This document shows positions 1 through 36,089 of a stretch of DNA of 64,000 bases, one piece after another. Source of the DNA: Rhizobium skierniewicense. GTDB taxonomy: Bacteria > Pseudomonadota > Alphaproteobacteria > Rhizobiales > Rhizobiaceae. The notes below the pieces were generated by a model. That model ran no database searches, was not told where the DNA came from, and saw only the letters and a list, made by a program, of their open reading frames with translations. The position numbers and the translations under genes are program-made. The stretch lies in assembly GCF_014196515.1 (NCBI RefSeq), contig NZ_JACIDV010000001.1:248001-312000 (forward strand). The letters are read 5' to 3'. Numbering within the stretch: the first letter of the stretch is position 1; every line of letters starts with the position of its first letter.

Positions 1-1185
1 GATCTTGATCGCTTCAAGTCGATCAATGATGGCCTGGGTCACGCAAGCGGCGATGCGCTGTTGGTATCTTTTGCGGAACGCCTGCTGCTTTTGATGCGTC
101 CCGGCGATATTGCCGCTCGTCTCGGTGGCGACGAATTTGCCATCATGCAGGTCGTCAACAAAAATGCCGTTGTCGAAGCCAGCAAGTTGGCATCGGCCAT
201 TATTCGCTCGGTCGCCAGACCCTTCAACCTGTTGGGCAAAGAAATATCTGTCGGCACAAGCATTGGGATTTGTACCGATACCGCGTTTGACGTCGATATT
301 TCCGAACTGCTTAAAAAGGCGGATATCGCACTTTATGCATCAAAGTCCGAGGGTCGGGGCATTTTTCGCTTCTTCAAGCCCGGGATGGAGATGTCGGGCG
401 ACCGCGGTCATGTGATGCAGCATGATATTGTTGCGGCTTTGCGCGACAACCAGTTCATGCTGCATTATCAGCCGATATTCTCTGTCTTGAAAAACGAGCC
501 TGTCGGATTTGAAGCGCTGTTGCGGTGGCGGCATCCAAAGCTTGGCTGGGTTTCACCTGGCGATTTCATTCCCGTCGCCGAAAAGACAGGACAGATCGTG
601 GCGATCGGTGAATGGGTGCTGAAGCGCGCTTGCGCCGATGCCAGACGGCTTCCACCTGAATGTACGATTGCGGTCAATGTCTCTCCCGTTCAGTTGCAGC
701 ATGGAAACTTCATCAAGACGGTGAAGTCGGCGCTCTTCAACAACGGTCTTGCCGCTTCGCGGCTGGAGCTTGAATTGACGGAGAGCGTGCAGATTTCGGT
801 CTTGGAGTGCACGGAAACGCTGGAGGGCCTCCGAGCGCTGGGCATACGCATCGCCCTCGATGATTTTGGCACCGGTTATTGTGGTGTCAGCTATCTGCTC
901 ACACTGCCCGTCACCAAGATAAAAATCGACCGCAGCTTCATCATGGGCATCGAAGATCGCTCTGAGAGCCGCGCCGTCATCCTCAGCCTGGTACAGCTCG
1001 CCCATACTCTGGGGCTGGAAACGACGACAGAAGGTATCGAGACCGAAAGCCAACTCGAGTTCGTCCGCTCCGCCGGCTGTTTGCTGGGGCAGGGGTACCA
1101 TCTGGGGCGTCCCGCCAAGATCGAGGAAATCGAGCGTATTTATCAAGATTTTTATCCCCAGAAGGTGTCATCGCTAGGAGCGTAA
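1..1185 (+). CDS. GGDEF-EAL cyclic-di-GMP protein, 5' end outside window
   Basis: The reading frame is open from base 1 (it begins DLDRFKSINDGLGHASGD), so the gene starts upstream of the window; the internal TTG at 61 is not the start. The visible part is the second half of a GGDEF domain with an intact RLGGDEF site, then a complete EAL domain: FEALLRWRHP, IAVNVSPVQL, ELTES, DDFGTGYCG, KIDRSF and EGIET. GGDEF domains make and EAL domains hydrolyse c-di-GMP; both sites look intact, so the net activity cannot be read from sequence. The sensory N-terminus is missing. The next gene, for a periplasmic binding protein, starts 3 bases after the stop, suggesting co-transcription and possibly a shared signalling role. 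Confidence 0.93.
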   Translation, partial: DLDRFKSINDGLGHASGDALLVSFAERLLLLMRPGDIAARLGGDEFAIMQVVNKNAVVEASKLASAIIRSVARPFNLLGKEISVGTSIGICTDTAFDVDISELLKKADIALYASKSEGRGIFRFFKPGMEMSGDRGHVMQHDIVAALRDNQFMLHYQPIFSVLKNEPVGFEALLRWRHPKLGWVSPGDFIPVAEKTGQIVAIGEWVLKRACADARRLPPECTIAVNVSPVQLQHGNFIKTVKSALFNNGLAASRLELELTESVQISVLECTETLEGLRALGIRIALDDFGTGYCGVSYLLTLPVTKIKIDRSFIMGIEDRSESRAVILSLVQLAHTLGLETTTEGIETESQLEFVRSAGCLLGQGYHLGRPAKIEEIERIYQDFYPQKVSSLGA

Positions 1186-1188
1186 CGA

Positions 1189-2130
1189 ATGCGATATCCT
1201 GAGTTTTTATGTGTGAATAGGAAATTCTTGCAGATTGCATTTGGGAGCGTTCTCTCCGTAGCACTTGTGTGCCCGCCATTCGGTTCCCCGGCGGCCACCG
1301 CCGCTGAGGAGGGAACGCTGGATAAAATTGCCCGTACCAAAACGATCACCATCGGATATCGCTCCGACGAGGTGCCGTTTGCCTATCGAACCCCGGATGG
1401 GGCTGCGGTTGGCTATACGGTGGAGTTGTGCAATCGCATTGCCGATCACGTCCGCGCCACGCTCAATCTCGACACCATCAACATCGATTACGTCCTGGCG
1501 ACAGCCGCAACCCGGTTTCTTCTCATCAAGACCGGCAAAATCGATCTGGAATGCAGCGCAACGACCAATAATGCCGAGCGGCGCGAGCAAGTGGCATTTT
1601 CTTATCCCCACTTCATCACCGCCACGCGGTTTGTCGCGAAAAAATCCAGCAATCTGCGGGAAATCAAAGACCTTGCCGGGCGCACCGTGGCATCAACGAC
1701 CGGCACGGTCAACATCGAGCAATTGCAGGAGCGAAACCGCGCCGATAAGCTGAATATTTCGATCATGCTGGCAAAGCAGAACATCGAAGGGTTTTCCTTC
1801 GTGGAAAACAACAGGGCTTCGGCATTCGTCATGGACGGGGTGCTGCTTGCGGCCAATGTCGCGTTTTCCAAAGCGCCTCAGGAGTATATGATCTCGTCCG
1901 AGACTTTCGGGCCGCCTGAGCCCTACGGAATTCTGCTTCGCAAGAATGACGAGCCTTTCCGCGCCGTCGTCAACGATGCGTTGCGGACGATTTTTGTCAG
2001 CGGGGAAATCGACGAGATCTACAACAGATGGTTCATGTCACCGCTGCCGCCTGATGGTCGCAATTTCAATCTGCCAATGTCTTCGGAACTGAAGTCCGCG
2101 TTTCGTGACCCGAAGGAGTATCTGCAATGA
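1189..2130 (+). CDS. periplasmic amino-acid-type solute-binding protein (SBP_bac_3 family)
   Basis: A 313-residue protein with a basic N-terminus, a hydrophobic stretch at about residues 14-38 ending near AATAAEEG (signal peptide), then a family-3 binding-protein fold: the strand TITIGYRSDEVPF, GYTVELCNRIAD, and the hinge region DLECSATTNNAERR. The latter resembles glutamate/aspartate-binding proteins. The start fits an AGGAG about 8 bases upstream. It lies 3 bases behind the GGDEF-EAL gene and overlaps the next, paralogous gene by 4 bases (ATGA). No permease or ATPase gene is adjacent, so it either feeds a transporter encoded elsewhere or presents a ligand to a membrane sensor. The family is clear; the ligand is not. 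Confidence 0.88.
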   Translation: MRYPEFLCVNRKFLQIAFGSVLSVALVCPPFGSPAATAAEEGTLDKIARTKTITIGYRSDEVPFAYRTPDGAAVGYTVELCNRIADHVRATLNLDTINIDYVLATAATRFLLIKTGKIDLECSATTNNAERREQVAFSYPHFITATRFVAKKSSNLREIKDLAGRTVASTTGTVNIEQLQERNRADKLNISIMLAKQNIEGFSFVENNRASAFVMDGVLLAANVAFSKAPQEYMISSETFGPPEPYGILLRKNDEPFRAVVNDALRTIFVSGEIDEIYNRWFMSPLPPDGRNFNLPMSSELKSAFRDPKEYLQ

Positions 2131-3032
2131 CATGCAGTTCCTTGTTTCGAACAGGCCTTGTTCAAGGCACCATCCTCCTTCTGCTGTCTGCGGGTCTTGC
2201 ATCGGCCGAGTTCACCATGCCCACCCTCCAGCGGATCAAGGAAACCGGAAAAATCAGGATTGGTTACGGTGCGACATCGCCGTTCTCGCTCATAACGGCG
2301 CAGGGTCGTGTTGTCGGTTATTCTATCGATCTGTGCCGGCTTCTGACAGAAAAGCTCAGAGAGCGGTTGCAAATGCCGAAAATCGAGATCGACTTCGTGC
2401 CGCGCACGCCCAGCAATCGCATACAGCTGCTGAATGATGGCACCATGGACATTGAATGCAATGCCAGCACGAACACAGCCGAAAGGCGAAAAAGCGCAAG
2501 TTTTGCGGTCAGTCACTTCCTGGGTGTGACACGCTATGTTTCGCTTGCAAAAAATGAACTCAAGACCTTGGCAGACCTGAAAGGACGGTCCGTCAGCGTG
2601 GCCCTGGGGACAGTGAATGTGAGTGATATCACCGAGGTCAATCGTTCGCAGAAACTCAACATGTCGATCGTGCCGGTGGAATCGCTGCAGTCGGCATTCG
2701 ACATGGTGACCGACGGCAGGGTGTCTGCGTTTTCCATGGATGAGGTTTTGCTGAGCATGATGATTGCCAAATCAACAACGCCATCCGAGTACCGCATGTC
2801 ATCAGACATGGTGAGCGATGAGCAGCCCTATGGTTTCATGATGCGATTGAACGACAACGCGTTTACAGATGCGGTCAACCAGGCGCTGACCGAAATTTAC
2901 AAGAGCCCGGACATGCCGATGATCTATGCCCGCTGGTTCCAGCAGCTATCGCCGGAGACAGGCGTCAATCTGAACATGCCGATGAGCGCACGTTTGAAAG
3001 ACGCCTTCGAAAACCCCGTTCCGATAAAATAA
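2127..3032 (+). CDS. second periplasmic amino-acid-type solute-binding protein
   Basis: A 301-residue paralogue of the preceding protein, translationally coupled to it by an ATGA overlap. It has a signal peptide ending near SAGLASAEF, then KIRIGYGATSPFS, GYSIDLCRLLTEKL, DIECNASTNTAERR and a C-terminal MPMSARLKDAFENP that matches MPMSSELKSAFRDP of its neighbour. The pair therefore looks like a tandem duplication that has diverged. Residues in the presumed ligand pocket differ (FAYRTPDG against FSLITAQG), so two related ligands are possible. Again no transporter membrane genes follow; the next gene is convergent pcaF. The family assignment is firm and the role is inferred. Confidence 0.87.
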   Translation: MTCSSLFRTGLVQGTILLLLSAGLASAEFTMPTLQRIKETGKIRIGYGATSPFSLITAQGRVVGYSIDLCRLLTEKLRERLQMPKIEIDFVPRTPSNRIQLLNDGTMDIECNASTNTAERRKSASFAVSHFLGVTRYVSLAKNELKTLADLKGRSVSVALGTVNVSDITEVNRSQKLNMSIVPVESLQSAFDMVTDGRVSAFSMDEVLLSMMIAKSTTPSEYRMSSDMVSDEQPYGFMMRLNDNAFTDAVNQALTEIYKSPDMPMIYARWFQQLSPETGVNLNMPMSARLKDAFENPVPIK

Positions 3033-3079
3033 AGCATCCACCGCGCTTCCATGCGTGATGGTGGCAATGATTTTTGCTG

Positions 3080-4285
3080 TTACGCCTTTTCCAGGGCGAT
3101 CGCTATGCCTTGGCCAACGCCGATGCACATCGTGGCAAGCGCCTTATCTCGACCCGTCAGCGAAAGCTCGAGCGCTGCCGTCCCCGTTATTCGCGCGCCG
3201 CTCATGCCGAGGGGATGCCCCAGTGCGATGGCGCCGCCATTGATGTTAGCGCGAGGATCATCATCGGCGATGCCAAGCTGGCGTAGCGTTGCCAGCCCTT
3301 GTGACGCGAACGCCTCGTTCAGCTCGATGACATCCAGCATGTCTTGCGTCCAGCCAAGCCGTGACAGAAGTTTTTGGGACGCCGGTGCCGGACCGATGCC
3401 CATCACGCGAGGAGGGACGCCAGCCGTTGCTCCACCGCTGATGCGGGCGAGGGGCGTAAGGCCATATGTCTTGACCGCCGCCGCCGAGGCAATGATCAGG
3501 GCCGCCGCGCCATCATTGACGCCTGAAGCATTACCCGCCGTGACGGTGGCACCCTCCATGCGATTGATCGGCTTCAATTTCGCCAAAGCCTCAAGGCTTG
3601 TCTCGCGGGGGTGCTCATCCTTGCCAACGATAACAGGATCGCCCTTTCGTTGGGGAATGCTGACCGGAGTGATCTCTTTTGCCAAACGTCCGTTCGCCTG
3701 CGCCTGCGATGCTTTTTGCTGGCTGCGAACCGCGAATGCATCCTGGCTCTCTCGCGAAACATGATAGTCGATGCCGACATTGTCGCCGGTTTCCGGCATG
3801 GAATCGACACCGTACATCGACTTCATTGCCGGATTGACGAAACGCCATCCAATCGTCGTGTCGTAGATTTCAGCGTTTCGCGAAAAGGCAGATTCTGCTT
3901 TCGGTATCACAAAAGGCGCGCGGCTCATGCTTTCCACGCCACCGGCAATCATCAGCTCCGCCTCGCCCGATTTGATGGCGCGCGCAGCGGTCATCACCGC
4001 ATCCATGCCAGAGCCGCACAGACGGTTTATAGTCGTGCCGGTGACCGACACCGGCAATCCTGCGAGCAAGGATGCCATGCGGGCCACATTACGGTTGTCT
4101 TCACCGGCCTGGTTGGCGCAGCCGAATATCACGTCGTCCACCGCTTCCCAGTCAATCGTCGGATTGCGCTCGACAAGCGCCTTTAAGGGAATGGCGCCCA
4201 GATCATCGGCGCGTATGGAAGACAATGCACCCCCGAAGCGGCCGATCGGAGTGCGGATATAGTCACAGATAAAAACGTCGCTCAT
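3080..4285 (-). CDS. pcaF: beta-ketoadipyl-CoA thiolase
   Basis: A thiolase of 401 residues, the usual PcaF length. It cleaves 3-oxoadipyl-CoA with CoA to succinyl-CoA and acetyl-CoA, the last step of the beta-ketoadipate pathway. Visible signatures are INRLCGSGMDAV with the acyl-accepting Cys, GGAIALGHPLGMSGAR with the catalytic His, and TMCIGVGQGIAI with the second Cys near the C-terminus. An upstream in-frame GTG at 4297 exists, but ATG at 4285 has GAGG at proper spacing and gives the standard N-terminus MSDVFICDYIRTPIGRFGG. It is last of a pcaI-pcaJ-pcaF operon, 8 bases after the pcaJ stop. Paralogous acetyl-CoA acetyltransferases look similar; the pcaIJ context decides. Confidence 0.95.
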   Translation of the reverse strand: MSDVFICDYIRTPIGRFGGALSSIRADDLGAIPLKALVERNPTIDWEAVDDVIFGCANQAGEDNRNVARMASLLAGLPVSVTGTTINRLCGSGMDAVMTAARAIKSGEAELMIAGGVESMSRAPFVIPKAESAFSRNAEIYDTTIGWRFVNPAMKSMYGVDSMPETGDNVGIDYHVSRESQDAFAVRSQQKASQAQANGRLAKEITPVSIPQRKGDPVIVGKDEHPRETSLEALAKLKPINRMEGATVTAGNASGVNDGAAALIIASAAAVKTYGLTPLARISGGATAGVPPRVMGIGPAPASQKLLSRLGWTQDMLDVIELNEAFASQGLATLRQLGIADDDPRANINGGAIALGHPLGMSGARITGTAALELSLTGRDKALATMCIGVGQGIAIALEKA

Positions 4286-4293
4286 GGCGTACC

Positions 4294-4998
4294 TCACAGT
4301 TCGGGCGCGGCAAGATCGGCCACATCCCCATCAATATGGAGTTTGGCGCCGGTCATGGCCTGCAAATCGTCAATCGTCATACCTGCCAGTTTCTCTCGCA
4401 GAACGAACCGACCATCGACAACATCGACAACGGCGTGACTGGTGTAGATGCGGGTAATGCAGCCCACGCCTGTCAGCGGAAATGCGCATGTTTCAACGAG
4501 CTTTGGTTCGCCCTTCTTCGTGACATGCTCGGTAATGACAAAGACCTGCTTTGCGCCGTGCACCAGATCCATAGCGCCACCAACGGCCGGAACGCCTTTG
4601 GAGCCGACGCGCCAGTTGGCCAGATCACCATTTTGCGCCACTTGATAGGCCCCAAGAATAGCAACATCCAGATGTCCGCCGCGCACCATGGCGAAACTGT
4701 CGGCGTGGTGAAAGAAGGCAGCGCCCTGCTTGAGCGTTACGGCCTTCTTGCCGGCGTTGATCAGGTCCCAGTCCTCTTCGCCTTCTGGAGGCGCTTCACC
4801 GAAATTCAGAATACCGTTTTCGGTGTGGAAGATGGCTTCGCGTCCGGGGGGCTGATAGCGAGCGACCATTTCGGGAAAACCAATGCCGAGATTGACATAG
4901 GCGCCGTCTTGGATGTCCTGCGCCGCGCGCCAGGCGATCTGGGCATTGGAAAGCTTGATGTCTTCGAACGTGTTGAGAGCGTGCGTATCGTCGGTCAT
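4294..4998 (-). CDS. pcaJ: 3-oxoadipate CoA-transferase, subunit B
   Basis: A 234-residue small subunit of the family I CoA-transferase that moves CoA from succinyl-CoA to 3-oxoadipate. It has YVNLGIGFPEMVARY near the N-terminus and HTENGILNFGEAP, whose Glu in the ENG motif is the residue that forms the enzyme-CoA thioester in this family. Its ATG overlaps the stop of pcaI by 4 bases, so the two subunits are translationally coupled, as expected for a 1:1 complex. The subunit order A then B and the downstream thiolase gene match pcaIJF of other Rhizobiaceae. An acetoacetate (AtoDA or ScoAB) enzyme is the alternative, made unlikely by the neighbours. Confidence 0.95.
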   Translation of the reverse strand: MTDDTHALNTFEDIKLSNAQIAWRAAQDIQDGAYVNLGIGFPEMVARYQPPGREAIFHTENGILNFGEAPPEGEEDWDLINAGKKAVTLKQGAAFFHHADSFAMVRGGHLDVAILGAYQVAQNGDLANWRVGSKGVPAVGGAMDLVHGAKQVFVITEHVTKKGEPKLVETCAFPLTGVGCITRIYTSHAVVDVVDGRFVLREKLAGMTIDDLQAMTGAKLHIDGDVADLAAPEL

Positions 4999-5702
4999 GC
5001 GTAGGCCACTCCTGCGCGGATAAGTTCTTCTTCCTGTTGCGGATGTTCGATCTGGACGACCCCGTCCACGAAAATTCCGGGTGTCACCACCTGTTCAGGA
5101 TCAATGGTGCCTATTGGCACGATCCTGGAAACCTGCGCAATTGTCGTTGCTGCTGCCATGCACATCAGGGGGTTGAAGTTGCGGCCTGCCTTGTTGTAGG
5201 TCAGGTTGCCGTGAGTATCGCCCAGCTGAGCCTTGACGATGGCAAAGTCCGCCTTCAACCATCGCTCCTGCACATAATGGCGTCCATCGAATTCGGCTAT
5301 CGGCTTGCCCTGCGCAAGCTCTGTCCCATAAGCGGTCGGAGTATAAAAAGCGGGGATGCCTGCGCCGCCTGCACGAATGCGCTCGGCAAGTGTTCCCTGT
5401 GGAACCAGTTCCAGTTCTATCTCGCCTGCCAGATATCGGTCGGTAAAGGCACGTGGGTCCGATGAGCGGGGAAATGAGCAGATCATCTTGGCGATCATCC
5501 CGGCATCGATCATGGCGGCAATGCCGATGCGCCCGTTTCCTGCATTGTTGTTGATGACCGTCAGGTTTTTCGGGCCCTTGTCGATCAGGGCATGGATGAG
5601 TTCGATGGGCGCGCCCGAACCGCCAAAGCCGCCAATCATGACGACGGCGCCATCACCAATCGCGCTCACCGCATCGGCAGCACTACCAATCGTCTTGTCC
5701 AT
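4995..5702 (-). CDS. pcaI: 3-oxoadipate CoA-transferase, subunit A
   Basis: A 235-residue large subunit of the 3-oxoadipate:succinyl-CoA CoA-transferase. The glycine-rich CoA-binding motif MIGGFGGSGAPIELI (about residues 22-36) and NNNAGNGRIG are family hallmarks. The start ATG at 5702 has a good GGAGG upstream. It is the first gene of the pcaIJF operon and is divergent from the IclR-type gene pcaR, with about 120 bases between them that hold the palindromic PcaR-type site at 5791-5805. In characterised systems PcaR activates pcaIJF in response to beta-ketoadipate; here this is inferred from the site and the arrangement. Confidence 0.95.
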   Translation of the reverse strand: MDKTIGSAADAVSAIGDGAVVMIGGFGGSGAPIELIHALIDKGPKNLTVINNNAGNGRIGIAAMIDAGMIAKMICSFPRSSDPRAFTDRYLAGEIELELVPQGTLAERIRAGGAGIPAFYTPTAYGTELAQGKPIAEFDGRHYVQERWLKADFAIVKAQLGDTHGNLTYNKAGRNFNPLMCMAAATTIAQVSRIVPIGTIDPEQVVTPGIFVDGVVQIEHPQQEEELIRAGVAYA

Positions 5703-5772
5703 AGGTCGACCTCCCGGATTTTGTCCAACTGGCCACAGCTAAATCCGAACGCATCTCGACCGCAACCATTTT

Positions 5773-5805
5773 GTGCGATATATCATATTTGTTCGATTAT
5801 CGCAC
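5773..5805. promoter_or_regulatory. candidate PcaR operator pair between pcaI and pcaR
   Basis: GTTCGATTATCGCAC at 5791-5805 differs at one central base from GTTCGATAATCGCAC, the PcaR-type binding consensus I remember from pseudomonads. An inverted half GTGCGAT lies at 5773-5779, so two sites face each other in the divergent intergenic region. Binding itself is inferred. Confidence 0.65.
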
Positions 5806-6550
5806 GAAACGTTAGGTGGATGATGACCAGTGACAGAGACATGATGGGCGGGCTTGCCAAAGGCTTGAGCATCATCGAAGCTTTCAGTGCGGAACGACCC
5901 CGTCTCTCGATCTCTCAAGCGGCGGAGATTGCGGGCCTTGATCGGGCCACCGCACGACGCTGTCTTTTAACGCTCGCGCAGCTCGGTTACGCTGCTTATG
6001 ACGGCAAGTTTTTCACGGTCACGCCCAAGGTTCTGCGCCTGGGTACGGGATGCCTCGCCACCATGCCGCTGCCGCGCATCGTCCAGCCGTTGCTGGACCA
6101 ACTTTCCGAACAGATTGGCCAGAGCACATCCGTTTCCATTCTTGATGAAACAGATATCGTCTATGTCGCCCGCGCCGCTCAGCGACGGGTCATGTCCATC
6201 GCGCTGATGCCGGGCTCCCGTCTTCCAGCCTATTGCACGTCAATGGGGCGGGTCCTTCTTGCGGCCATGAGCATGGACGACAGACGAAAACATCTCGCAT
6301 CAATCTTGCTGGAGGCGAGAACGGAAAAAACCATCACGGATATCGAGATGTTGATGGTTGAACTCGACGTAACGAGGACACGCGGCTACGCGTTGATCGA
6401 TCAGGAGGTTGAGGTCGGTCTAAGATCTGTCGCGGTACCGCTGAAAAACATTCACGGCAAAACAGTCGCAGCGCTCAATGTCGGTCTACCCGCATCGGCG
6501 GCATCGATGGCGGAACTGGTGGAGAATTATCTGCCTTCGCTTCTGAGGGT

Positions 6551-9683
<3,133 letters not shown>

Positions 9684-32007: not shown

Positions 32008-32742
32008 CTACTCGGCGTGCATCACCGTAATGGCGCCATCGCGGGTGATTTTCACCGCAGATAGCCGCCCCGTCATAAACGCACCGGTATCTACATTCAG
32101 ACGATTGTCGGAAAGCGATACAGTGCGCACAGGCGTATGGCCGTGCACGGTCATGAACAGGTTGTCGGCACCCGGAACGGTCTGATCCTTTGGCCTTATC
32201 CACAACAGATGCTTGTCGTGCTGCCTTTGCAGCGGCACACCGTTCACGACCCCCGCATGGACGAAACAGAAGCCGGGCACCGCCAGCAGCGATGGCAGCG
32301 ATGTCATGAAGTCGATATGGCTCTGCGGAATGTGTTCGTGAAGCCGTGCTTTCAGGCTTTTCTTATCTGCCGGTATCTCCCCGATCCCGTAGGATTTCAG
32401 CGTTTCCATTCCGCCGAACTCAAGCCAGAGATGGTCTTCTCGCGGATCGCTTAGAAAATCCAGCATCGTCGCCTCGTGGTTTCCCGCAAGGCAAAAGCGA
32501 TCGATATCACCGGATATCGGCTGCATCAGCTCATGAATGACGTAGGAGGATTTCGGACCGCGGTCGATGTAGTCTCCCAGCATCACGATCCATTTGGAGC
32601 CGTGTATGTGCGCGGCATCGCTCAGGATCTTCTTCTGCAACGCCTGCAACAGATCAAAGCACCCGTGAACATCGCCGATGGCATAGATAATGTCGGGCCT
32701 GTCATGCGAGAACAATTTTCGGCGCATCTGGGGTGTTTGCAT
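32008..32742 (-). CDS. metallophosphoesterase of the PPP/PrpA-ApaH type
   Basis: A 244-residue calcineurin-like phosphoesterase. All metal-binding motifs are present in order: YAIGDVHGCFDLL, MLGDYIDRGPKSS, FCLAGNHEATML, FVHAGVVNGVPL and VHGHTPVRTV. Such bacterial proteins act as Ser/Thr protein phosphatases or dinucleoside tetraphosphatases; the short length argues against ApaH (about 280) but does not settle the substrate. The gene stands alone, convergent with xylD and divergent from the Cys4 protein gene. A GGAAGG lies about 10 bases before the ATG. Confidence 0.9.
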   Translation of the reverse strand: MQTPQMRRKLFSHDRPDIIYAIGDVHGCFDLLQALQKKILSDAAHIHGSKWIVMLGDYIDRGPKSSYVIHELMQPISGDIDRFCLAGNHEATMLDFLSDPREDHLWLEFGGMETLKSYGIGEIPADKKSLKARLHEHIPQSHIDFMTSLPSLLAVPGFCFVHAGVVNGVPLQRQHDKHLLWIRPKDQTVPGADNLFMTVHGHTPVRTVSLSDNRLNVDTGAFMTGRLSAVKITRDGAITVMHAE

Positions 32743-32911
32743 CGTCTTTGGACCTTCCTCGCGGTTGGGCGACGCCGCGAATTCATGGAAAAGCTATGAA
32801 CGATTAGGCTTAACGCAGCATTGACAGTGGGCCTGATCCGCACATTGTCCCTAAAATCGTCTCTTTTGCATGGGTTTTTGGTATGACCGATACAAATAAC
32901 GGGAGGTGCTT

Positions 32912-33547
32912 ATGACGCTACAGAACCGGGTCGATCCCTTTGGAGACATCGTCGCTCTTCCGTTGCGCGGGCTTTTTACCGGCAATCGTGGCATGATTCA
33001 TGACCCTCGAACCAAAACCCTCACGACGAAACGGTGGACCTCGAAGGCGTGGCTGGTGTGCAATTGCGATTATAAGAAAGTGCGCCGCGATGTCATGGCG
33101 ACACGCGGCTGGACCGAACTTTTCTTCTTTGACGAAGCGACAGCTTTGGCGGCCGGTCACCGCCCATGCTTCCAGTGCCGCCGTGATGACGCCGATCGGT
33201 TCCGGAGCGCTTGGGCAGCCGGGAATGGCGTCTCCCCTCCCAGCTCCAAAGACATGGACAGCGTGCTTCATCGGGAGAGGCTCCAGTCTCGCCGCAAACG
33301 GTTGAACATGCTGCTATCGCCTCTGGAACATTTGCCAGATGGCGCCATGATTGCCGCTGCGGGGAATGCTTTTCTGATTGTCGAGGGCAAGCCGTATCAC
33401 TGGGATGCAGATGGATATCAACCGGTGCAGACCTTGCCATTCGTCGACGGGTTGCTCACGCCGCCCTCTACGCTCAACACCCTGCACGCCGGATACACAC
33501 CGCGTCTGCACCCGTCGCTTTCAACGAAACAGGAAACGGTCGCATGA
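32912..33547 (+). CDS. unnamed Cys4 protein with Ada-like zinc motif, coupled to alkB
   Basis: A 211-residue protein I do not recognise as a named family. Residues 46-95 resemble the N-terminal zinc domain of Ada: WLVCNCDYKK then TELFFFDEATALAAGHRPCFQC, where the ALAAGxRPCxxC block is almost the Ada motif. The four Cys are 50, 52, 86 and 89 (C-x-C-x33-C-x2-C against C-x3-C-x26-C-x2-C in Ada). The remaining about 115 residues are basic then hydrophobic. ATG at 32912 follows GGGAGG. The stop overlaps the alkB start by 4 bases, so both proteins are co-translated; a DNA alkylation role is therefore likely but inferred. Confidence 0.8.
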   Translation: MTLQNRVDPFGDIVALPLRGLFTGNRGMIHDPRTKTLTTKRWTSKAWLVCNCDYKKVRRDVMATRGWTELFFFDEATALAAGHRPCFQCRRDDADRFRSAWAAGNGVSPPSSKDMDSVLHRERLQSRRKRLNMLLSPLEHLPDGAMIAAAGNAFLIVEGKPYHWDADGYQPVQTLPFVDGLLTPPSTLNTLHAGYTPRLHPSLSTKQETVA

Positions 33548-34200
33548 TGGATGATCTGTTTTCTGGCCTCGAAGCGGCGGCCCCGAAGCGTGTCGAGATG
33601 GCAGATGGCGCATGGCTGTTGCGTCATCATGCATTGGATGTTTCCTCGACGCTCTTGCACGCCGTCGACCAGATCTCGTCCGCCGCCCCTTTTCGCCACA
33701 TGGTCACTCCGGGCGGTTTTTCCATGTCAGTCGCCATGACGAATTGTGGACCCTTTGGCTGGGTGACGGACCGCAGAGGATACCGGTATCAAACCACTGA
33801 TCCCGAGAGTGGAAAACCATGGCCAGCCATGCCGCAAAGCTTTCAGTCGCTGGCCGAAAGTGCTGCACGGGACGCTGGCTATCCAGATTTTATCCCCAAT
33901 GCCTGTCTGATCAACCGCTACGAGCCGGGCGCGAAAATGTCTCTCCATCAGGACAAGGACGAGAAAGATTTCACCAATCCCATTGTTTCGGTGTCGTTGG
34001 GCCTGCCTGCCACCTTTCAGTTCGGTGGCATGAACCGAACCGATCCGGTGCGCAAACATGTGCTCAGTCATGGTGATGTCGTCGTCTGGGGCGGTCCTTC
34101 CCGCCTGTTCTTCCATGGCATTATGCCGTTGAAGGACGGCATCCACGACGCCGCCGGACGGGCACGCATCAATCTGACGTTCCGCCATGCGGCTGTGTGA
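33544..34200 (+). CDS. alkB: AlkB, Fe(II)/2-oxoglutarate-dependent DNA repair demethylase
   Basis: A 218-residue dioxygenase, the size of E. coli AlkB (216). It oxidatively removes methyl groups from 1-methyladenine and 3-methylcytosine. The Fe ligands His135 and Asp137 lie in LHQDKDE and His191 in RLFFHGIMPLKDG; the 2-oxoglutarate arginines Arg208 and Arg214 are in RARINLTFR. Other AlkB-typical blocks are NACLINRYEPGAKMSLHQ and SHGDVVVWGGPSRLF. The start is the ATGATG at 33544 overlapping the upstream Cys4 gene, so the two are one operon. A much longer frame from 33211 is read-through of the other gene and is ignored. Confidence 0.96.
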   Translation: MMDDLFSGLEAAAPKRVEMADGAWLLRHHALDVSSTLLHAVDQISSAAPFRHMVTPGGFSMSVAMTNCGPFGWVTDRRGYRYQTTDPESGKPWPAMPQSFQSLAESAARDAGYPDFIPNACLINRYEPGAKMSLHQDKDEKDFTNPIVSVSLGLPATFQFGGMNRTDPVRKHVLSHGDVVVWGGPSRLFFHGIMPLKDGIHDAAGRARINLTFRHAAV

Positions 34201-34334: not shown

Positions 34335-36089
34335 ATGAACACAGCGCAGCAGCTCAAGACGACTTTCGAGATCGACAGACAGGTGGAGTTCACCTCCAAA
34401 CTGACGGCTGCGCATGCGCGAATTGAAAAGGCGTTTCTTGAAGGCGGAGCGGTTCTGGTGTCCGTCATGGACATTCTGGCCAATCTGACGGGCATTTTGG
34501 ACGGAATGACCGGCACGATCGACGGTCAGACAGCCCAAACAACGCTCGATGGTTTGGGCAAAACCATCGATGATCTCGCGCAATTGCCGAAGACGGAAAA
34601 AACACGCCAGGCGGCATTCAATTCCTTGGCAGAAATGTGCTCCTCCACAGGCGGGCATATTGACGATATCCATGAGACAATCCGCTATCTCAAGACCTTC
34701 GTGATCACGGTCAAGATCACCGGTGCTGGGCTCGCCGAATTTGCGGGCTTCGCCGATGAAATTCGCGAACGCATCCAGTCGGGTGCAGACGAAGTCAGCC
34801 GTTTTGCCAAGAACCTCGAAGCGATGCGGTCCCAGCTCATCAAGGCCCGTTCTTATTCATCGGGCACGCTTGCGGATTTCGAATCGACCATTCCGCAAAT
34901 TATCGCAGGACTGAACGAAAACTCAGCGCGTATTTCCACGCAGCAGCAGGAGATGTCTGACATCGCCGCGCAGGTGAAAAAGATCGCCAGTACCATTCAG
35001 GGCAAGATCGGCTCGGTGCTTTCTTCCCTACAGATCGGCGATATTACCCGCCAGCGCATCGAACATATCCAGCGCATGTTGGAGATGCTGGATGATTTCG
35101 CGTCTTCCGACGAAGGAAAGCAGCTTGATGCCGGTGAATATGCCGTTTTGAAAGAAGCGGTTCTGCAGATGGCTGGCGCGCAGATGAACGAGACAGCGGC
35201 CGCTTTCCATCGCGATTGCACCAAGATATTCAAAAGCATTTCGAGCTTTGCCGATGATGCGGCGCGCATCCTGTCTCTGCGCGATGAACTGGTCGACAAG
35301 ACCCGCAATGGCGACAAGGACACGCTGGCCCTGATGGAGCAGGGTATCGTTGAAGCCTGTAATCTGGTTACCCGTGTGCAGGAGAGCAGCGCCGGTGCCG
35401 ACAATGTCGTTCTGTCCGTGACCAACAGCGCGCAGGAATTGTCACGCGGCATTGAAATTTTGCGATCCATCAAGATCGATATTCACTACATGGCGCTTAA
35501 CTCCAATCTGCGCTGCTCTAAGCTTGGCGATGCCGGCCGCTCTGTCAATGTTGTCAGCGGTGAAATGCGAGTGTTCGCGGGCAAGCTGGAGACGCCAGCC
35601 GACGCCATCGTCGAAGAACTCCAGCGTGTCGAAGGCGCCACGAGCCAGCTGGCACAACAGGGCCGAGGCCTTTCGGCTGATCTGGCTCTGCCGCTGAACG
35701 AAAGTCTCCACGCAATCCGCCGCGCCAAGACACAGATGGATGCGGGTTTGCAGGCCCTTGCCGACGAAGGTCAGGCCGTTTTCAGCCGCATCAGTTCAGC
35801 CGTTGTGACGCTCGACTTCGAAAGCGAGCTGGGTGCCACCTTTAACGAATGCTGCCAGATCTCCGCACAATTGTCGCAAGGCTTTGACGCAAACGTCTCT
35901 GCTTTCAGCCATAAGATAGAAACCTTCAGCTCAGCGGTCTACAAGCTCTACACAATGTCTCAGGAGCGCGACATTCACGTTCGCTTTCTGCCTGTAAGTG
36001 TTCCGTCTGCCAGAGCAAATGTCACTTCCATTGCCAGCAACGCAGCTGCAGCGGATGATGATGATCTGTTTGCGGACGCGCTTTTCTAG
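34335..36089 (+). CDS. soluble coiled-coil protein with a degenerate chemoreceptor-like hairpin
   Basis: A 584-residue, strongly helical protein without signal peptide or membrane segment. Residues about 379-425 (IKIDIHYMALNSNLRCSKLG, then DAGRSVNVVSGEMRVFA) align with the hairpin tip of methyl-accepting proteins (ALNAAIEAARAGE..GRGFAVVADEVR) but with altered residues, so coupling to CheA is doubtful. Further helices (residues 150-260, 440-550) look like the receptor bundle, and QIGDITRQRIEHIQRML resembles signalling-dimer helices. The C-terminus is the acidic ADDDDLFADALF. It may be a cytoplasmic scaffold or sensor. It stands alone between alkB and the DUF2171 gene; function unknown. Confidence 0.75.
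   Translation: MNTAQQLKTTFEIDRQVEFTSKLTAAHARIEKAFLEGGAVLVSVMDILANLTGILDGMTGTIDGQTAQTTLDGLGKTIDDLAQLPKTEKTRQAAFNSLAEMCSSTGGHIDDIHETIRYLKTFVITVKITGAGLAEFAGFADEIRERIQSGADEVSRFAKNLEAMRSQLIKARSYSSGTLADFESTIPQIIAGLNENSARISTQQQEMSDIAAQVKKIASTIQGKIGSVLSSLQIGDITRQRIEHIQRMLEMLDDFASSDEGKQLDAGEYAVLKEAVLQMAGAQMNETAAAFHRDCTKIFKSISSFADDAARILSLRDELVDKTRNGDKDTLALMEQGIVEACNLVTRVQESSAGADNVVLSVTNSAQELSRGIEILRSIKIDIHYMALNSNLRCSKLGDAGRSVNVVSGEMRVFAGKLETPADAIVEELQRVEGATSQLAQQGRGLSADLALPLNESLHAIRRAKTQMDAGLQALADEGQAVFSRISSAVVTLDFESELGATFNECCQISAQLSQGFDANVSAFSHKIETFSSAVYKLYTMSQERDIHVRFLPVSVPSARANVTSIASNAAAADDDDLFADALF

Follow-up and report, generated by a model that had tools for sequence, protein, structure and literature searches.

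The textbook example of a DNA methylation sensor is Ada, each molecule of which works a single time, and the zinc of the Ada metal-binding domain is held by the cysteines C38-x3-C42-...-C69-x2-C72 (Ada numbering). In the Escherichia coli ada-alkB operon (PMC6813329), alkB is immediately preceded by a gene whose product has a metal domain of the Ada type. A comparable arrangement is found in Rhizobium skierniewicense, in a stretch of 64,000 nucleotides (assembly GCF_014196515.1, contig NZ_JACIDV010000001.1, positions 248,001 to 312,000, forward strand) that is called the window below and whose positions are used throughout. P is our working name for the 211-residue product of an open reading frame at 32912..33547 (+ strand, ATG start), and the next gene is alkB (33544..34200, +), encoding a DNA oxidative demethylase of 218 residues. 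In both species the gene just before alkB thus encodes a metal domain of the Ada type; in E. coli that gene is the one for the full activator Ada, whereas here it is a detached relative and full-length Ada is encoded elsewhere in the genome. We tentatively read P as an Ada-derived protein with a three-cysteine metal site that would recognize or repair modified DNA and, in this genus, work with AlkB.

Conserved cysteines and relation to the Ada domain

An earlier note on this DNA had described a 211-residue protein with TELFFFDEATALAAGHRPCFQC and a C-x-C-x33-C-x2-C spacing, and both are present exactly in the translation of P, as C50-x-C52-x33-C86-x2-C89. The P alignment comprises 105 distinct sequences of 150-290 residues kept from 130 matching loci, with named members from Alpha-, Beta- and Gammaproteobacteria, Bacteroidota and Actinomycetota; it contains sister species, so that the counts are not independent events. 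Nine residues are invariant in all 105 homologues, namely C50 (codon 33059..33061, +), C86, C89, H83, D74, E75, R26, G27 and W47, and H30 is kept in 100. Three of these lie in the segment His83-Arg-Pro-Cys86-x2-Cys89 (33158..33178, +). Position 52 is Cys in only 43 of the 105 sequences and Leu in 55. The Zn(Cys)4 site proposed in the note is therefore not borne out, and a metal site in P would be formed by three cysteines rather than four.

The Ada-like region spans residues of about 20-101 (32969..33214, +; GNRG, C50, FFFDEATALAAGHRPCxxC), and P appears, from profile comparisons, to descend from the Ada metal-binding domain. In a direct search the domain model PF02805 matches residues 71-91 only, at 13.5 bits against a cut-off of 23, and it gives sub-threshold matches (E up to 1, best 0.0049) in 18 of 24 P homologues. 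A direct profile comparison of P with Ada is suggestive, covering 26 columns (Prob 83.5, E 8.3e-6), and direct pairwise alignments reach E of about 1e-5 over 26-55 columns. A small family of stand-alone proteins, about 90-100 residues long and annotated as 'Ada metal-binding domain-containing protein' (loci L147, L154-L159 and L166), connects the two. P aligns with this family over 76 columns (P residues 6-101, Prob 97.4, E 9.7e-12), and the family aligns with Ada over 61 columns (Prob 97.7, E 1.5e-12); these E-values refer to a single pair of profiles, built from 105 (P), 6 (small family) and 17 (Ada) sequences. The relation to Ada proposed in the note thus stands through this intermediate and falls short in the profile search with PF02805, which both scanned small-family members pass (29.3 and 32.4 bits) and P does not.

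The small family shares with P the order of three cysteines, the pattern FFxDExTAxAAGxRPCxxC and homology over the aligned columns, and a Gly is aligned at Ada Cys38. P is the longer of the two, with some 105 additional residues at the C-terminal end and an insertion ahead of C50. When the small-family profile was run on the genome of the window, P was the sole match (E 2.8e-5), and the P locus is the match in 28 of the 42 genomes matched by this profile. With the N-terminal domain of Ada (PF02805, structures 1u8b/1adn), the likeness lies in the second half (FF...EA..AG.RPC..C), whereas P lacks the C38-x3-C42 pair, the helix-turn-helix (HTH) and the alkyltransferase. No AraC HTH or alkyltransferase domain gave a Pfam match in P, in agreement with the earlier description of P as detached from the activator and alkyltransferase parts.

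A C-terminal region set apart from the Ada-like part, as the note had also described, occupies residues of about 107-205 (33230..33526, +). In the structural model of a homologue from an alphaproteobacterial metagenome-assembled genome (L017), residues 133-186 weakly resemble domain I of EF-P/eIF5A, an SH3-like barrel. When model 1 was compared with known structures, the N-Ada entry 1u8b ranked third with E 1.6, at a predicted local distance difference test (pLDDT) score of only 53-80 per block for residues 1-70; N-Ada was not among the structure matches in the VIA rows. No Pfam or NCBIfam family above its cut-off covers P, and no PHROGs match was found at E up to 1.

Neighbourhoods of P and of its small relatives

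The stop codon of P (TGA, 33545-33547) overlaps the start of alkB (ATG, 33544) in the tetranucleotide ATGA (33544..33547, +; context ATGATGG), as the note had reported. The downstream product is a full-length AlkB with the HxD and RxNxTFR catalytic motifs; it scores 204.7 bits with PF13532 (cut-off 31.2) and 356.6 with the equivalog model NF011930 (cut-off 267), and 196 bits with TIGR00568, under the cut-off of 231. P was matched in 40 of 101 genomes, the window genome and its 100 nearest relatives; one match, a 32-residue fragment (G097), was dropped from the counts. In all 14 P-bearing members of the genus alkB lies immediately downstream, and the two genes overlap by 4 bases in 11 cases and by 1 base in 3. 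Of 13 pairings of P with the window sequence, 7 allowed dS to be computed (6 were saturated), and in these the ratio of nonsynonymous to synonymous substitution rates (dN/dS) ranges from 0.078 to 0.117; alkB gives similar values. Coupling of P and alkB in the genus is thus real and under purifying selection, and from the overlap the two proteins are probably made together. Within the genus, all 14 genomes with P have a full AlkB match (at least 170 bits), against 2 of the 25 without P; two further genomes of the latter kind have weaker AlkB matches of 121-129 bits. The closest named relative judged by P is Agrobacterium rubi (84%). By eye, one genome (G030, L054) carries alkB without P in apparently the same genomic place, behind the same metallophosphoesterase gene.

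Outside the genus the picture is different. When the AlkB of the window was used as a tblastn query, alkB was absent from 48 of 48 P loci (L010-L053 and L062-L065), with flanks of about 3-6 kb searched, shorter at contig ends. Coupling to alkB is therefore confined to the genus of the window and is not general; the co-occurrence suggested in the note extends beyond the single strain and ends with the genus. Presence of AlkB outside the genus is independent of P (22 of 25 genomes with P against 26 of 36 without, p 0.21), and three P genomes have no full AlkB match (G046, G053 and G085, the last being only 67% complete). Co-occurrence with Ada shows no steady signal. Among the 100 relatives counted, the Ada_Zn domain is rarer in genomes with P (9 of 39 against 37 of 61, p 0.0004), whereas in a wider sample of the phylum, with four Ada-motif-only matches scored as without P, Ada occurs in 17 of 44 and 155 of 354 genomes, respectively (p 0.63).

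The small stand-alone family was found on seven plasmid records, six of which were examined. An AlkB-type 2-oxoglutarate (2OG)-Fe(II) oxygenase gene adjoins it in four of these six loci, and three scanned oxygenases of the four belong to PF09859. On two near-identical Streptomyces plasmids the small-family gene follows the oxygenase gene directly; it does so as well on a Rhodococcus plasmid, where genes for a sigma factor and an O6-methylguanine transferase belong to the same row. The gene order in Cupriavidus metallidurans is ada, oxygenase, small protein, and in genome G267 the small-family gene begins 7 bases after ada. No oxygenase neighbour was found at the Microvirga and Psychrobacillus plasmid loci. 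In the Ada proteins of the C. metallidurans CH34 megaplasmid (L156:1072-3285) and of G267 (L166:408-1773), the C38 position is kept, Ser stands at C42 and the C69-x2-C72 pair has been lost. The neighbouring stand-alone protein mirrors these Adas: it has three cysteines at the lost positions and lacks one at C38, so that the two proteins divide the Ada metal site between them in a complementary way.

The P family is already catalogued, as PADLOC family PDC-S40 (PDLC05013), an entry that gives no function or description and mentions neither a relation to Ada nor a link to alkB. P is a member over nearly its full length (residues 1-203, profile positions 7-208 of 211, E 8.1e-75), and all 27 P homologues scanned match as well. 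The same model matches 7 of 7 small-family members, at best with E 1.2e-10, over 33 residues around the second cysteine pair. We take PDC-S to denote a single-gene phage-defence candidate inferred from its neighbourhood. In the open-licence literature (CC0, CC BY, CC BY-SA) no description of the P family or its alkB link was found, the name PDC-S40 not being among the search terms; a term search of PMC10853773 and PMC12839542 gave no hits for Ada or AlkB.

The neighbourhoods of P are varied. In L017 a tight row consists of an AlkA-type glycosylase, an esterase, P and an HNH gene, with P two genes behind the glycosylase, which scores 54.9 bits with PF00730 and stays under the threshold of the AlkA equivalog model; L015 and L016 resemble it by clustering and by eye. 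Outside the class of the window, P in L164 (4986-10603) directly follows a gene that carries both GmrSD domains, with an EcoEI-type R subunit further up, and in L165 (4995-9733) it has GmrSD_N and a type I S subunit nearby. These two genomes belong to one order, in which 194 genomes gave no more than 3 strong matches to P; in the third (L121) an HNH reading frame overlaps or abuts the P stop, depending on the start chosen. A Mrr_cat gene lies about 1.5 kb from P in Pseudomonas luteola (L065), and SAVED, ThiF and nucleotidyltransferase genes lie 2-6 kb from it in Tsukamurella (L063). In Diaphorobacter, Rhodobacter, Shinella and one Streptomyces plasmid, no restriction or defence gene is listed near P in gene tables that are incomplete. 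By eye, one homologue (L120, G415, about 1183-7787) belongs to a run of small genes near an integron-integrase-like integrase, a cassette-like context. Two viral contigs (L097:3577-4191 and L096:5001-5618) also carry P homologues, one among phage-tail-like genes and one beside an HsdM-like gene, again by eye. Of 52 genomes, 11 (G046, G426 and nine more, in the order of the window) have tag, the gene for 3-methyladenine glycosylase I, no more than 20 kb from P, and in two the distance is at most 2 kb.

Upstream of P in the window, a GGGAGG (32901..32906, +) is the likely ribosome-binding site. Further upstream, the block TCCCTAAAATCGTCT (32848..32862, +) is conserved in the genus and contains TAAAAT, possibly part of a promoter; TCCCTAAAATCGTC (up to 2 mismatches) precedes P in 13 of 14 genus loci and was not found in L059. 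The block occurs once in its own genome with up to 1 mismatch, and at that stringency it is therefore not a regulon motif. A metallophosphoesterase gene (32008-32742, -) diverges from the P-alkB operon, and L012 and L013 have similar genes close to P. Downstream of alkB, a 584-residue protein (34335-36089, +) has weak similarity to the MCP-signal domain (25.6 bits, below cut-off).

Candidate roles of P

The earlier interpretation, a separate repair enzyme or a sensor working with AlkB, is partly supported. Its limits are that the alkB link is not general, that full-length Ada is encoded elsewhere in the genome and that the family is equally catalogued as a phage-defence candidate. What its contexts most likely have in common is an action of P on alkylated or otherwise modified DNA. 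The explanation that we favour, with the reserve due to a tentative choice, is that P derives from the Ada metal domain and stands alone; C50, C86 and C89 would form its metal site, with H83 and D74/E75 next to that site in the sequence, and a C-terminal region has been added. In the genus, P and AlkB would be made together from the overlapping gene pair, presumably on a shared transcript. P would then bind DNA and most likely handle a lesion or modification of the DNA backbone that AlkB cannot, such as methyl phosphotriesters, or bring AlkB to modified DNA. This account draws on the gene overlap kept in all P-bearing genus members, the joint occurrence with full AlkB there, the profile links to Ada by way of the small family, the pairing of that family with oxygenase genes, and the AlkA-type glycosylase near P in L017 and, by clustering and by eye, in L015 and L016.

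It is possible, though on balance rather unlikely, that P is a self-contained anti-phage protein that recognizes foreign or modified DNA, its link to alkB being an accident of the lineage or a matter of self-protection. The full-length PDC-S40 matches of all scanned homologues agree with this, as do the restriction-type neighbours in L164, L165 and L065, the SAVED/ThiF/nucleotidyltransferase genes in L063 and the scattered distribution, which includes the cassette-like locus and the viral contigs. Yet PDC entries presumably rest on neighbourhood, most alphaproteobacterial P genes among the matches listed have, by eye, no adjoining restriction genes, the four further plasmid loci list none, and a selected coupling to alkB is hard to call an accident. 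A true sacrificial acceptor, with C50 taking methyl groups from phosphotriesters like Ada Cys38, is improbable: the cysteine is invariant, it falls at the Cys38 position in the direct hhalign alignment and Ada_Zn is rarer in P-bearing relatives, but through the small family the same residue aligns with Cys42, the anticorrelation is gone in the wider set, and an Ada-type acceptor site is not supported because P has no C-x3-C pair.

Slightly more doubtful still is the idea that P acts without catalysis, as an adaptor or DNA-binding partner, to load AlkB or set its dose. Coupled translation, suggested by the gene overlap, and the weak SH3-like resemblance of the C-terminal region would suit such a partner; the non-genus loci without a nearby alkB, the three genomes without a full AlkB match and the invariant Cys, His, Asp and Glu, which suggest an active site, argue otherwise. 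That P is unrelated to both DNA alkylation and defence and only shares transcription with alkB is the least probable of these accounts, for although its neighbourhoods are very varied, alkylation-repair genes repeatedly accompany Ada-like stand-alone proteins.

Extending the favoured explanation, that of an Ada-derived three-cysteine protein acting on modified DNA, one may speculate, at long odds, that loss of Cys38 with retention of three cysteines turned a one-shot acceptor into a turnover metal enzyme with an open coordination site in P and the small family. Such a zinc hydrolase or demethylase would act on DNA phosphotriesters while AlkB acts on bases, and might be reused in restriction islands against backbone-modified phage DNA or collateral methylation. 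The P family is widespread, and it has mostly kept the metal site and apparently not the sacrificial cysteine. Its tie to alkB in one lineage and its place among restriction genes in others make it a concrete case in which a connection of alkylation repair with phage defence can be tested, and the analysis offers a testable function for the catalogued candidate PDC-S40.
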